Shown piece by piece: positions 2,688 to 6,339 of a stretch of 6,581 nt of DNA. Source of the DNA: Candidatus Lindowiibacteriota bacterium (lineage in GTDB: Bacteria; Lindowbacteria; 2-12-FULL-62-27). The stretch covers positions 1-6,581 of the forward strand of contig JAHFCY010000192.1 in NCBI GenBank assembly GCA_023249255.1, written 5' to 3'. The stretch's first letter is position 1. Every line of letters starts with the position of its first letter. The notes under the pieces are model-generated. The model was given only the letters and a program-made list of their open reading frames with translations. It was not told the DNA's origin and did no database searches. Both the position numbers and the translations under genes were made by a program.

Positions 2688-2776
2688 GGTCAAGAGTGAC
2701 GGAATCATTCGGCGGGAAATCAGATGGTTCCCACCTCGCTTGACGGCCGCTTATGACGTTGATTCGATGGCGTCAT
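2688..2776 (+). repeat. Duplicated leader, copy A (upstream of 2806 gene)
   Basis: Shares five blocks with 5711-5795 in the same order: GGTCAAGAG (2688-2696), GGAATCATTCGG (2701-2712), TCGCTTGACGG (2736-2746), TTGATTCGATG (2759-2769) and GTCAT (2772-2776). From 2736 to 2776 the two copies align without gaps, 32 of 41 bases identical by my count. Block 2 to block 3 spacing differs by 13 bases. It lies in the divergent region between the kinase pair and the plus-strand genes. Confidence 0.8.
2740..2768 (+). promoter_or_regulatory. Probable promoter for 2806 gene (TTGACG-17-TTCGAT)
   Basis: TTGACG at 2740-2745 and TTCGAT at 2763-2768 are 17 bp apart. The -10 is poor against TATAAT (3 of 6), but both hexamers and their spacing are identical in the copy at 5759-5787, while the spacer between them has diverged (5 of 12 bases match in its central part). 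That pattern favours a real promoter. Predicted transcription start is about 2775, giving a leader of about 30 nt. Confidence 0.5.
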
Positions 2777-2805
2777 TCTGACCGAAGACAGAGAAAGGAA
2801 AACTG

Positions 2806-3462
2806 ATGATAGAGAAACTCCGATCGGCGATCAATAAGCTTCTCGAAAACACCCGCCCCACTCCCGTCGATCCAACAAAATTTACGGACCCTGTTGCAAC
2901 GCACACCGAATGGTCTGCCCTAAAGCCCGGCGGAACCAATTTTTGCACTCATCGACTCCGCAATCCCACACCCTATACTTATGAATTTCGAGCAACTTTA
3001 TTGGCGATTATTTTTTACTCGCTATTTCTTGCCTTCGGATCATTTATGCTTGTAATCGGGACGAATAAGATTATGGGAAGACCGGATAGCGTAAAAATCC
3101 AAAAAGAAAATGCTGAGTGGATGCTTGCGGGGGTTGGTCTGGCGATAGCCATATTTGCCGGAAGAATGCTCTATAACGGAACGGCGCCGATTGTTTTCGA
3201 CCGAAGATCAGGAATATTTTGCAAAGGACGAAACGCCAGGGCCGGCAAAGGGCGCATACTGATCGATCAGATTCACGCCATCCAACTCATTTCAGAACAC
3301 TGCTCGGGCAAAAACAGGGGCTATTATAGTTATGAACTGAATCTGGTCTTGCGTGATGGAACAAGAATACAGGTCATTGATCACGGAAGTCTCGAACTCA
3401 TGCTGACGGATTCAAAAAAACTCTCCGGATTTCTGGGGGTTCCGGTTTGGAATGCGATTTAG
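2806..3462 (+). CDS. Two-helix membrane protein with C-terminal PH-like beta domain, function unknown
   Basis: A 218-residue protein without a named function. An N-terminal cytoplasmic-looking segment carries ENTRPTPVDPTKFTDP (14-29), a stretch I believe is typical of a conserved bacterial hypothetical family. Two hydrophobic helices follow at about 63-84 and 105-124. The C-terminal part (127-218) alternates strands and turns (APIVFDRRSGIFCKG, IHAIQLISEHC, YSYELNLVLRDGTRIQVIDHG) and ends in a short helix with VPVWNAI, resembling bacterial PH-like membrane-associated domains; that fold is inference. Start chosen because AGGA (2796-2799) lies 6 nt before the ATG and the promoter-like leader ends at 2776. 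Base composition looks more AT-rich than the kinase genes. The miniprotein gene follows 49 bp later, probably on the same transcript. No catalytic motif is visible. Confidence 0.88.
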   Translation: MIEKLRSAINKLLENTRPTPVDPTKFTDPVATHTEWSALKPGGTNFCTHRLRNPTPYTYEFRATLLAIIFYSLFLAFGSFMLVIGTNKIMGRPDSVKIQKENAEWMLAGVGLAIAIFAGRMLYNGTAPIVFDRRSGIFCKGRNARAGKGRILIDQIHAIQLISEHCSGKNRGYYSYELNLVLRDGTRIQVIDHGSLELMLTDSKKLSGFLGVPVWNAI

Positions 3463-3511
3463 AGAAGACAATCGGCAATGATTCATCAAATCGACGAAAA
3501 GGTGAGCAGAA

Positions 3512-3697
3512 ATGGAAAATGAAACAAAGAAATGTTCGTTCGGCGGAGTTGCAGGTATGGGTTTGCGAGTCGTCGGCATTTTGTCCGTAATCGGCATGAT
3601 CGGAACCGTGGTAGACGGCGGAAATTATCTGGCCGCCGGTGTATGCGGCATCTCCGCCTCCCTTGCGTTTGGATTACTTTTGTTAGGACACAAATAG
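3512..3697 (+). CDS. 61-residue membrane miniprotein, function unknown
   Basis: A small hydrophobic protein: a polar N-terminus (MENETKKCSFGG) and two likely helices, about 16-34 (LRVVGILSVIGMIGTVV) and 39-58 (YLAAGVCGISASLAFGLLLL), joined by an Asp-Gly-Gly turn and ending in HK. A good Shine-Dalgarno AAGGTGAG (3499-3506) lies 5 nt before the ATG, which supports a real gene despite its size. It follows the 2806 gene by 49 bp and is probably co-transcribed. Its last codons overlap by 11 bases the open frame of the truncated DUF3592 gene downstream, which lies one base forward in frame. It has none of the DUF3592 N-terminal motifs (W-x-PTPC, YxYTFxG), so it is not the missing start of that gene. 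No known function. Confidence 0.72.
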   Translation: MENETKKCSFGGVAGMGLRVVGILSVIGMIGTVVDGGNYLAAGVCGISASLAFGLLLLGHK

Positions 3698-3779
3698 ATC
3701 AATCAGGGGGAGTTCCACGCGCTACGATTTTTTTGAGTCGATCCTCAATCGCAATACCGACATCACATCGCAGGCGCTG
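3687..3779 (+). pseudogene. Decapitated 5' remnant of DUF3592 gene (no start codon)
   Basis: After an in-frame TAG at 3684-3686 the frame of the downstream gene is open, but it contains no ATG, GTG or TTG before 3780. From about 3711 it encodes SSTRYDFFESILNRN and onward, which matches HSKRYDLFASAINRY in the paralogue at 5794-6339 starting near residue 92-93 there. So coding homology starts abruptly in mid-domain, with about 92 N-terminal residues (first helix, W-x-PTPC segment and first beta strands) absent. Confidence 0.65.
3705..3712 (+). promoter_or_regulatory. Orphan ribosome-binding sequence AGGGGGAG
   Basis: A strong purine-rich Shine-Dalgarno-like run sits 8 bases after the stop of the miniprotein gene, but no ATG, GTG or TTG follows at usable distance in the DUF3592 frame. 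Homology to the DUF3592 paralogue begins immediately after it (about 3711). The simplest reading is that this served the gene before its 5' coding part was deleted. Confidence 0.4.
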
Positions 3780-4637
3780 GTGCAGAGGTATCCCCAGGGA
3801 CTGACGACCGACTGCTACCTCAATTCGGCGAATCCCATGGAAGCGGTTCTCAGTCGAGAAATACCCGGGACGCTCAGATGGAGACTCATCCCCGTGGCGT
3901 TTTTTCTGGTCGGAGTCGGCATGCTGATTTTCGAGGTGAAGAAAAGAACATCTCCAGAAATTGCCGGCAAAAAGAGAGAGGCGACGGCGAAATCGAAGGA
4001 AACCGAGACGCCCCAAACGGAATTCATCACCTCCCTCCTGTTTTGCCTGTTCTGGAACGGTCTGTGCTCGTTTTGGTACTGGAAAGTCTGGGAGATGTGG
4101 AAAATTCCCCACACGACATTGTGGGCATGGTTCCTTCCGATTGTCGGCACCATTTTTATGATCCCGTTCGCCCTGATCGGCGGAGTTATGATTCTCGATG
4201 TTTTTAAAACATTCTTCCGCCTCTTTAATCCTGTCGCGAAATTAACTTTCAGCGCCAAATCCGCGAAACCGGGTGACACAGTTGAAGTGAAATGGGAACT
4301 CGCGGGGCGGTTCGAGCGCATCCAGTGCCTCACGCTGTCCCTCTTCTGTTGCAAAGATGTCGAGGCGGGAACGGAGAACGAAATTCGGCCGGCCGAAGAG
4401 ACTCTTCAACGAATCGAAATCGAAAAAATCCGGGGGCCGCTTCGGCAGCGGATGGGACTGACCCGCGTCAAGATTCCAGCCGATGCGATACCCACCGGCA
4501 AAAACTCCGATAACCGGATCACCTGGGAAATTCAACTTCACGGAAAAATTTCAAAGTGGCCGGATATCGTGCAGGCCCGTGAGATCCAGGTCCGATTTAC
4601 CGCCGACACCGACCCGGGCGACGAGGGCCGGGAGTAA
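3780..4637 (+). CDS. DUF3592-type membrane protein with Ig/arrestin-like C-terminus, 5'-truncated
   Basis: The first usable start codon is GTG at 3780, giving 285 residues; no Shine-Dalgarno precedes it, so expression is doubtful. Residues 1-50 are the end of a DUF3592 domain (RYPQGLTTDCY, NPMEAVLSREIPG, helix at about 34-52), with 31 of 49 residues identical to the paralogue at 5794-6339 by my count. Then come a Lys/Glu-rich linker (54-80), hydrophobic segments at about 84-101 and 114-138, and a beta-rich domain (about 152-273: KLTFSAKSAKPGDTVEV, ITWEIQLHGKISKWPDI) like the Ig/arrestin-like domain often found after DUF3592. The 3' part has no internal stop or frameshift over 950 bases, so either the loss is recent or the C-terminal part is still used. 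Family assignment is good; molecular function is unknown. Confidence 0.75.
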   Translation: MQRYPQGLTTDCYLNSANPMEAVLSREIPGTLRWRLIPVAFFLVGVGMLIFEVKKRTSPEIAGKKREATAKSKETETPQTEFITSLLFCLFWNGLCSFWYWKVWEMWKIPHTTLWAWFLPIVGTIFMIPFALIGGVMILDVFKTFFRLFNPVAKLTFSAKSAKPGDTVEVKWELAGRFERIQCLTLSLFCCKDVEAGTENEIRPAEETLQRIEIEKIRGPLRQRMGLTRVKIPADAIPTGKNSDNRITWEIQLHGKISKWPDIVQAREIQVRFTADTDPGDEGRE

Positions 4638-4647
4638 TGACGCAAAC

Positions 4648-4681
4648 GGCCGGACAAATTTTGCACGAACATCAACCGGCC
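4648..4681 (+). other. Inverted repeat GGCCGG/CCGGCC after DUF3592-type gene
   Basis: GGCCGG (4648-4653) and CCGGCC (4676-4681) form a 6-bp stem with a 22-base loop just after the stop at 4637. The loop is long and no T-run follows directly, so it may only be chance or part of a weak 3' end. Confidence 0.25.
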
Positions 4682-4687
4682 TTGAGG

Positions 4688-4707
4688 AGCCGGGAGAGGC
4701 TGTTTTT
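4688..4707 (+). terminator. Possible weak terminator before SPFH gene
   Basis: AGCC (4688-4691), a six-base loop and GGCT (4698-4701) are followed by GTTTTT (4702-4707). The stem is only 4 bp, so the call rests mainly on position: after the DUF3592-type gene and just before an independent promoter. Confidence 0.3.
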
Positions 4708-4714
4708 CCTGCCA

Positions 4715-4742
4715 TTGACTACGACCCGGTCAGGATTATACT
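4715..4742 (+). promoter_or_regulatory. Sigma70-type promoter of SPFH gene
   Basis: TTGACT (4715-4720), 16-bp spacer, TATACT (4737-4742): 5 of 6 matches to each consensus hexamer. Expected transcription start is about 4749, giving a leader of only about 16 nt that is almost entirely the ribosome-binding site. This gene is therefore likely transcribed on its own at a substantial basal level. Confidence 0.75.
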
Positions 4743-4750
4743 CTCCGCAG

Positions 4751-4757
4751 GGAGGTG
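4751..4757 (+). promoter_or_regulatory. Strong Shine-Dalgarno GGAGGTG that fixes the SPFH start
   Basis: GGAGGTG lies 7 nt before the ATG at 4765. It decides against the in-frame upstream ATG at 4483, which lies inside the previous gene and would add 94 residues unlike any SPFH N-terminus. Confidence 0.85.
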
Positions 4758-4764
4758 GTTAATC

Positions 4765-5703
4765 ATGGAATACAGTCTTGCTCCACTCATTATCGTCGGG
4801 GGTTTGGGGATTTTCCTGCTTTTTTGGATTGTCTGCACAGTCCCCCAAAGTACGGTCGCCATCGTCACGATGTTCGGGAAATACAGGCGTATCCTGCGTG
4901 AAGGGTTGAATTTCAAGTTGCCTTGGGAATCCATCTACAGCCGGTTGTCGCTCCAGAATCGGGCTCTGGAACTGGAATTCCAGGCGATTACCCAAGATCA
5001 GGCCAATGTGAAGTTCTCCACGATGATTGTATACTTGGTAGCGGATTCCAGCGACGACACCATTAAAAAGGCCACATTCAGTTTTGCTTCTCACGACGAA
5101 TTTCTTCTCGCGCTTCAGAGGACCATCGACGGGTCCATCCGACAGTTCGTGGCCACCACCAAGCAGGCGCAGATTTTGGGGATGCGCCCGGAGATCGTTG
5201 ACCACACCAAGAAGAATCTGGATGAAGTGGTCTCGTCGTGGGGATATGTGGTCCGGGACATACAAATCACGGACATGACGTTCGACAAGGAGATCATCGA
5301 TTCCATGGCGCGCGTGGTGTCATCGAAAAATCTTCTGGCGGCGGCGGAGAACGAAGGCGCGGCGTTGCTCGTCAAGCGCACCAAAGACGCCGAGGCGGAA
5401 GCGGCGTACAAGACCATCGGGGCCGAGGCTGAAAAAAAGGCGTCAGCCATGCGCGGGGAGGGACTCGCTCTATTTCGGAAAAACGTCGCCGAGGGCATGA
5501 AGCAGGCCGCCGAGAGTCTCAAGGACGCGGGAGTCGACTCCAACTTTCTTTTGTTCCTGGAATATACGGACGCGTTGAAATACGTCGCCGATCACGCCCA
5601 GGGGAAGATCGTGTTCATGGACCACGGCGCGGGCGCGGCCGACCGGGTCGTGCAGACCCTCGCAGCCATGAATGAAGGAGCGTCACTCAACCAACCGAAG
5701 TAG
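4765..5703 (+). CDS. SPFH/band-7 (stomatin/prohibitin-type) membrane protein
   Basis: A 312-residue SPFH-domain protein, expected to oligomerise on the inner membrane and scaffold membrane microdomains or protease complexes, as HflC/HflK, stomatins and prohibitins do. One N-terminal hydrophobic helix (about 6-25) is followed by the SPFH core: VPQSTVAIVTMFGKYRRIL (26-44), EGLNFKLPW (46-54), ITQDQANVKF (75-84) and DIQITDM (165-171). The C-terminal third (about 190-250) is an Ala/Glu/Lys-rich coiled coil with AEAEAAYKTIGAEAEKKA and an MRGEGLALFRKNV segment like that of HIR/stomatin-type members. Length is usual for the family. It has its own sigma70-like promoter and strong Shine-Dalgarno. No NfeD-type partner or protease gene is adjacent, so the usual stomatin operon is not present in this window; neighbours are DUF3592 membrane proteins. 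Family assignment is firm, the specific role open. Confidence 0.93.
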   Translation: MEYSLAPLIIVGGLGIFLLFWIVCTVPQSTVAIVTMFGKYRRILREGLNFKLPWESIYSRLSLQNRALELEFQAITQDQANVKFSTMIVYLVADSSDDTIKKATFSFASHDEFLLALQRTIDGSIRQFVATTKQAQILGMRPEIVDHTKKNLDEVVSSWGYVVRDIQITDMTFDKEIIDSMARVVSSKNLLAAAENEGAALLVKRTKDAEAEAAYKTIGAEAEKKASAMRGEGLALFRKNVAEGMKQAAESLKDAGVDSNFLLFLEYTDALKYVADHAQGKIVFMDHGAGAADRVVQTLAAMNEGASLNQPK

Positions 5704-5710
5704 TCAGCCG

Positions 5711-5795
5711 GGTCAAGAGCGCAAAGAGCGGGGGAATCATTCGGTTCCGTCGTGTCGCTTGACGGTCGTGTACCGCATTGATTCGATGATGTCAT
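5711..5795 (+). repeat. Duplicated leader, copy B (upstream of 5794 gene)
   Basis: Second copy of the 2688-2776 leader: GGTCAAGAG (5711-5719), GGAATCATTCGG (5733-5744), TCGCTTGACGG (5755-5765), TTGATTCGATG (5778-5788) and GTCAT (5791-5795). It starts 8 bases after the SPFH stop codon. Its last block overlaps the ATG of the following gene, whereas in copy A the same place reads ATT and the gene starts 30 bp further on. Confidence 0.8.
5759..5787 (+). promoter_or_regulatory. Probable promoter for 5794 gene (TTGACG-17-TTCGAT)
   Basis: TTGACG (5759-5764) and TTCGAT (5782-5787) with a 17-bp spacer, identical hexamers and spacing to 2740-2768. Expected transcription start is about 5793-5795, at the ATG itself, which would make the mRNA leaderless or nearly so. 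This fits the absence of a Shine-Dalgarno there. Confidence 0.45.
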
Positions 5796-6339
5796 GCAGA
5801 ATGAGCCCGGCGCCGATCCGACCGCTCCGGCAGGCGTGATCTTCGGTTTCTTTAAGACATTCCTGTGCATATTCATGTTGTTCGCCGCATTCATGGTTTA
5901 TTCTTCCGTGGTATCGCCGCTCATGAGTCATCTGAAATCGAGTGACTGGATTCCGACGCCCTGCCGGATTGAATTGAGCCAGGTCTTCATACCCAACGGC
6001 GTCAACGCCCGCCGTTGGCGGAAAGTTGATATCCAGTATGCCTATACATTCAAAGGTCAATCCTACCATTCCAAGCGTTACGATTTATTCGCGTCGGCCA
6101 TCAATCGATACGGCGGCGCGAACAATACTCCCGAGGAGATCGTCTCGCGATTTCCGATAGGCCTGACAACAACCTGCTATGTCGATCCGAAAAATCCCCA
6201 AGAGGCCGTCCTCAACCGGGAGATTCCCGGGTCGATGGTGTGGGGATTGATACCTCTGGTATTTTTCCTGGTCCCCTTGGGCATGCTGGCTTTTATACGA
6301 AGGATGCAGCGGCGATTGACGACCGGACCCTCTCGATGA
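5794..6339 (+). CDS. Short DUF3592 membrane protein
   Basis: A 181-residue protein with the full DUF3592 layout: N-terminal helix (about 15-38), the W-x-PTPC segment (52-57), strands KVDIQYAYTFKGQSYHSKRY (77-96), RFPIGLTTTCYVDPKNPQEA (119-138), then a second helix (about 149-167) and a basic tail. DUF3592 (PF12158) members are membrane proteins of unknown function whose beta domain faces outward between two helices. It lacks the extra helices and Ig/arrestin-like domain of the paralogue at 3780-4637, but retains the N-terminal half that paralogue lost. No Shine-Dalgarno precedes the ATG at 5794; an in-frame GTG lies at about 5836 but would cut into the first helix, so 5794 is preferred. It follows SPFH by 90 bp but has its own promoter-like leader. 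Confidence 0.88.
   Translation: MQNEPGADPTAPAGVIFGFFKTFLCIFMLFAAFMVYSSVVSPLMSHLKSSDWIPTPCRIELSQVFIPNGVNARRWRKVDIQYAYTFKGQSYHSKRYDLFASAINRYGGANNTPEEIVSRFPIGLTTTCYVDPKNPQEAVLNREIPGSMVWGLIPLVFFLVPLGMLAFIRRMQRRLTTGPSR

Follow-up and report, generated by a model that had tools for sequence, protein, structure and literature searches.

In horizontal regulatory transfer, or regulatory rewiring by non-coding DNA, strains exchange an intergenic region. The locus described here is similar in that one regulatory region stands ahead of different genes, but both of its copies lie in one genome and it is the coding part that appears to have changed. The general process of duplication and partial replacement with promoter capture is matched in the presence of two promoter-gene copies, one of them 5'-truncated, and in the position of genes of atypical composition directly behind the retained promoter, the order of events being reconstructed here from a single genome. 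Leaderless bacterial genes, recognized by a -10 box that lies ~12 bp ahead of the start codon (PMC3160421), are the third point of comparison.

The window analyzed, a stretch of 6,581 nucleotides, makes up one entire contig (C233) in a draft genome of 3.35 Mb. It probably holds the outcome of a duplication of a leaderless-type promoter together with its DUF3592 gene, followed by replacement of the front of the first gene copy by an apparently acquired gene pair, A and B. The process is an ordinary evolutionary one that is unusually legible; a span of 3.7 kb contains the donor gene copy, the scar and also the intact sister. It provides a compact case of an apparently acquired gene pair inheriting a resident promoter, and a caution that a shared leader ahead of unrelated genes need not signify a regulon. 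It also adds sequence evidence for common leaderless transcription in a poorly sampled bacterial lineage.

The two leaders

Leader 1 (2688-2781) and leader 2 (5711-5800), both on the forward strand and delimited by alignment to each other, share five blocks and end in a promoter core. The initial annotation had reported these blocks in the same order in both leaders, and all of them were re-located where it had placed them: GGTCAAGAG at 2688 and 5711; GGAATCATTCGG, containing the odd palindrome GAAT-C-ATTC, at 2701-2712 and 5733-5744; GGTTCC, between GGAATCATTCGG and the next block; TCGCTTGACGG at 2736 and 5755; and TTGATTCGATG at 2759 and 5778. Alignment also reproduced the ungapped core, 2736-2776 against 5755-5795, with 32 of 41 positions identical. 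The local alignment score of the two leaders is 40, compared with a mean of 16.8 and a maximum of 29 for 1000 dinucleotide-preserving shuffle pairs; that they are copies of one promoter region is supported by their sequences.

In the window's own genome the leader core occurs at two places only when up to three mismatches are allowed, and a sequence model built from both leaders reaches E < 0.1 at these two leaders only. The core at up to three mismatches is absent from 40 other genomes, including two relatives of the same family, and the core pattern has no exact match in a wider genome contig collection. Two promoters of the same class in one organism could resemble each other without common descent, and the core does fit a promoter geometry common in this genome, the two-leader model also finding a weak third core on contig C366 (E 0.35). 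This explanation is nevertheless very improbable, as the shared blocks GGTCAAGAG, GGAATCATTCGG and GGTTCC reach 50 nt upstream of the -35 box, the spacer and the flanking sequence agree as well as the hexamers do not only within the boxes but outside them, and TTGAC-N18-TT.GAT and similar patterns are otherwise rare ahead of genes.

Several other candidate explanations of the leaders were not supported. A dispersed repeat or mobile promoter element would be expected in many copies, and the genome has two. A short conserved open reading frame through the leaders was dismissed, since the blocks do not keep one frame and their spacing differs by 13 nt. For a structured RNA leader or riboswitch, Rfam gave no match at E up to 1, and the predicted folds of the leaders are not clearly better than those of shuffled sequences (z -0.95 and -1.74).

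The DUF3592 paralogues and the low-GC cassette

The gene directly behind leader 2 (5794-6339, forward strand) encodes a DUF3592 membrane protein of 181 aa, which matches PF12158 with E 5.5e-11 and 43.4 bits, above the curated cut-off of 25.3. A 5'-truncated paralogue lies at 3711-4637 on the same strand and is homologous to 6069-6294 (DNA alignment of 3713-3931 with 6069-6293). Its product scores 18.6 bits against PF12158, below the cut-off, and keeps only profile positions 46-83 of 84; half of the domain is missing, and the homology to the intact copy is established by sequence, the two proteins being 54-55% identical over residues 92-167 of the intact copy. The paralogue lacks the first ~92 codons, and homology sets in abruptly at ~3713; nothing else in the window corresponds to residues 1-91 of the intact copy. 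These two are the only DUF3592 homologues in the genome. Between the two copies lies a Band 7/SPFH-domain gene (4765-5703, forward strand; Pfam PF01145, E 1.7e-27).

Since 3711-4637 is a truncated DUF3592 gene, leader 1 precedes, by 931 bp, the rest of the very gene that follows leader 2. The initial annotation held that the genes preceded by the two leaders are not homologous, which is correct for the genes directly behind them but overlooks the truncated homologue of the second gene behind the first. Its further proposal, that the copying or retention of promoter and leader had been independent of the coding part, is not supported: the DUF3592 remnant is still behind leader 1, cut off from it by a low-GC insert, and on the preferred reading the promoter was not copied apart from coding sequence.

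The headless paralogue is a clean 317-codon frame with high GC3 and a C-terminal extension that is not found in the intact copy and has no assigned family. Its frame is open over 3687-4637, with GTG 3780 as the first listed start, and overlaps the end of gene B; GTG 3780 or coupling to B are candidate routes for its translation.

The insert, a putative inserted or replacing cassette on the forward strand (2782-3712, GC 0.472), is marked by a GC step, GC falling to 0.45-0.47 exactly over this interval. It holds gene A (2806-3462, 218 aa) and gene B (3512-3697, 61 aa), each encoding a protein with two predicted transmembrane segments; a Shine-Dalgarno-like GAAAGGA sits seven bases before the ATG of gene A. 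GC3 is 0.47 in A and 0.53 in B, compared with 0.65-0.73 in the other genes. GC3 as low as that of gene A was found in 1.6% of 555 sampled genes, and GC as low as that of the cassette in 2.6% of 931-bp segments of the sampled genome. Gene A has no Pfam or NCBIfam match and no relative among 40 other genomes searched; its product shares 28-29% identity with hypothetical proteins from two Marinobacter conjugative plasmids, and the plasmid relatives of gene A are confined to conjugative plasmids. A search for terminal repeats or insertion element ends at the cassette found none. The composition fits an apparently acquired, foreign cassette, low GC alone being no proof of foreign origin.

The coding parts shared by the paralogues have diverged considerably (NG86 dS 1.4, dN 0.34), and this high synonymous divergence would make the duplication old. 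Identity in the leader core (32/41) exceeds that at fourfold-degenerate sites of the paralogues (11/23, 48%; Fisher p 0.015) and, marginally, that at all aligned coding sites (139/219; p 0.049). The greater likeness of the core weakly suggests constraint, and hence a leader that stayed in use. Among the 40 other genomes no close counterpart of the DUF3592 genes was found, and one weak DUF3592 match; a DUF3592 protein scan of the wider contig collection gave nothing, and a literature search on DUF3592 promoters found no papers.

Promoter geometry and predicted leaderless starts

The predicted promoter core of leader 2 (5759-5793, forward strand) consists of a -35 box TTGACG (5759-5764), a 17-nt spacer, a -10 box TTCGAT (5782-5787) and six nucleotides leading to the ATG at 5794. 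In leader 1 (core 2740-2774, forward strand) the same boxes, at 2740-2745 and 2763-2768, are likewise separated by 17 nt and followed by six nucleotides, and the predicted start at 2775 reads ATT in place of ATG. A TG stands one base ahead of TTCGAT in both cores. The initial annotation had expected transcription starts near 2775 and 5794, and the predicted -35 and -10 boxes point to the same positions. The cores would act as promoters with these starts, and the DUF3592 mRNA would be leaderless because its ATG lies at +1 in leader 2; no Shine-Dalgarno-like sequence precedes this ATG.

Compared with the leaderless genes described earlier (PMC3160421), leader 2 is alike in having its predicted -10 box at -12 to -7 and ATG at +1, and the genome is alike in being enriched for TANNNT-N6-ATG. 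The locus differs from them in its -10 box, which is TTCGAT and not TANNNT, and in leader 1, which no longer has the ATG and stands before a gene whose start is Shine-Dalgarno-like. As regards a leaderless promoter of sigma-70 type, both leaders have a TTGAC-like -35 and a -10-like box about 17 nt apart; TTCGAT agrees with the -10 at positions 1, 5 and 6 and lacks A2; and a start codon at +1 is present in leader 2 only. A simple sigma-70 scan detected neither promoter, because TTCGAT is off consensus and the scan accepts only A as the second base of the -10 box.

The geometry was surveyed in 1.34-1.35 Mb of the 3.35 Mb, partly in contigs picked for pattern matches. Behind TTGA-N19-TA...T, ATG stands at distance 6 in 15 sites versus 1.9 per other offset (Poisson 2e-9), with a further excess at distances 7 and 8, and the preferred spacer for TTGAC...TA...T is 17 nt (54 versus 19 and 21). 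With TTGA-N19-TT..AT, ATG is again most frequent at distance 6 (8 versus ~1), in a sample partly chosen by a related pattern. When the core pattern was searched without ATG, six of the 28 inspected sites outside the window had ATG exactly at the predicted +1, where 0.4 would be expected (p 3e-6); among these six, at least two are homologous to each other. TTGAC-N17-TANNNT followed by ATG 6-8 nt on is strongly enriched in the sampled genome. Leaderless genes appear, from these patterns, to be common in this lineage.

The same promoter geometry is found in the opposite direction ahead of the kinase gene (ATG 2638, minus strand), where TTGACC (2693-2688), a 17-nt spacer, TTCCAT (2670-2665) and six nucleotides lead to an ATG at 2658. 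This ATG opens a seven-codon frame, MQRVRSR*, and the stop of that frame and the ATG of the kinase gene overlap (ATGA). As TTGACC 2693-2688 lies in the first block of leader 1, GGTCAAGAG is also the predicted -35 box of the kinase gene. Leader 2 keeps GGTCAAGAG with no divergent gene there.

Proposed history and other readings of the locus

The ancestral unit would have consisted of the promoter and a DUF3592 membrane-protein gene, and this unit would have been duplicated. At 5711-6339 promoter and gene would still be joined. In the other copy, at 2688-4637, the low-GC cassette would have taken the place of the first ~92 codons, leaving the old promoter before A and the headless remainder of the DUF3592 gene behind B. 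Gene A would then have a leader of ~31 nt and be translated with a ribosome site of its own. An undisturbed first copy was found in none of the genomes searched, which include three of this phylum, and the other two of these three have neither the leader nor gene A. The cassette, the remnant and the leader could also have been joined by separate rearrangements.

It is rather unlikely that promoter DNA instead moved alone to its place before gene A, by recombination, gene conversion or a small mobile element, with the nearby DUF3592 remnant stemming from an unrelated event before or after this movement. What speaks for such a movement comes from elsewhere in the genome. The scan for the core pattern without ATG yielded a second set of homologous leaders at C5:3467, C151:3615 and C366:8895 (minus strand), with pairwise local scores of 67, 85 and 52 against a shuffle maximum of 29; C30:1442 (minus strand) is a more distant member (40 versus a shuffle value of 26), and a matrix scan of 1.35 Mb revealed no further one. 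The leaders of this set are of leaderless type, including the first codons ATGCAAAATCAAAATTC. That of C5 precedes a SEC-C-motif-like protein (MQNQNS...), that of C151 a six-codon frame MQNQNS* and then another frame, and that of C366 a 107-codon membrane frame, its ATG lost. The three precede different frames, in which no common coding remnant is visible after the first codons, so that leaders in this genome do turn up before different genes. In the window, however, what is left of the matching gene follows the low-GC insert directly and in the same orientation, which makes a second event superfluous, and there are only two leader copies in the genome, unlike a mobile repeat. Duplication of the promoter with its gene and partial replacement of one copy is thus the preferred reading.

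The second set is weakly linked to the pair in the window, leader 2 and the C5 leader scoring 33 against a shuffle maximum of 27 and all other pairs remaining at shuffle level. It seems unlikely that leaderless promoter modules, complete with the start codon and the first codons ATGCAAAATCAAAATTC, form a small family in this genome that has spread to different genes and of which the window pair would be a diverged branch. If so, copies of one start module would repeatedly have activated new genes in this lineage.

The initial annotation had also seen in the palindrome block a candidate binding site for a shared regulator, which would place the two genes in one small regulon. In the strict form of this idea, A-B and the DUF3592 gene would be under the joint control of a dedicated regulator that recognizes GAATCATTC in each leader. 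The 12-mer GGAATCATTCGG is indeed identical in both leaders, compared with 48% identity at the fourfold-degenerate sites of the paralogues. The genome scan did not bear out a wider role: against a third-order model, GGAATCATTCGG has three exact matches with 1.2 expected, the third being inside an ORF of ~377 codons on contig C223, and 32 sites at up to one mismatch with 35.5 expected, which is no genome-wide enrichment. The proposed tie to gene starts failed too, all 17 of the inspected one-mismatch sites outside the window lying within open frames of more than 100 codons. A reversed-pattern control (one match) is an unfair yardstick, since the model expects 0.7 for the reversed pattern. Within the leaders, the distance of GGAATCATTCGG to the -35 box differs by 13 nt (23 versus 10 nt), the palindrome arms are only 4 nt long, and the optimal alignment pairs the second GGAATCATTCGG with another stretch of leader 1, GGGAAATCAGATGG; no regulator gene lies within the window. 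A dedicated regulator acting on both leaders is therefore quite improbable. The block may be functional within the two leaders, and a regulon of these two genes alone is possible, one that would have a single ancestral promoter as its basis rather than sites of independent origin.

Contigs C53 and C180 carry, close to two of the one-mismatch sites, stretches that resemble each other and look non-coding. They contain TGTCAATA...TGTCAAT motifs as well as GGCCGGGTATTGACA and are possibly an interspersed repeat of this genome.
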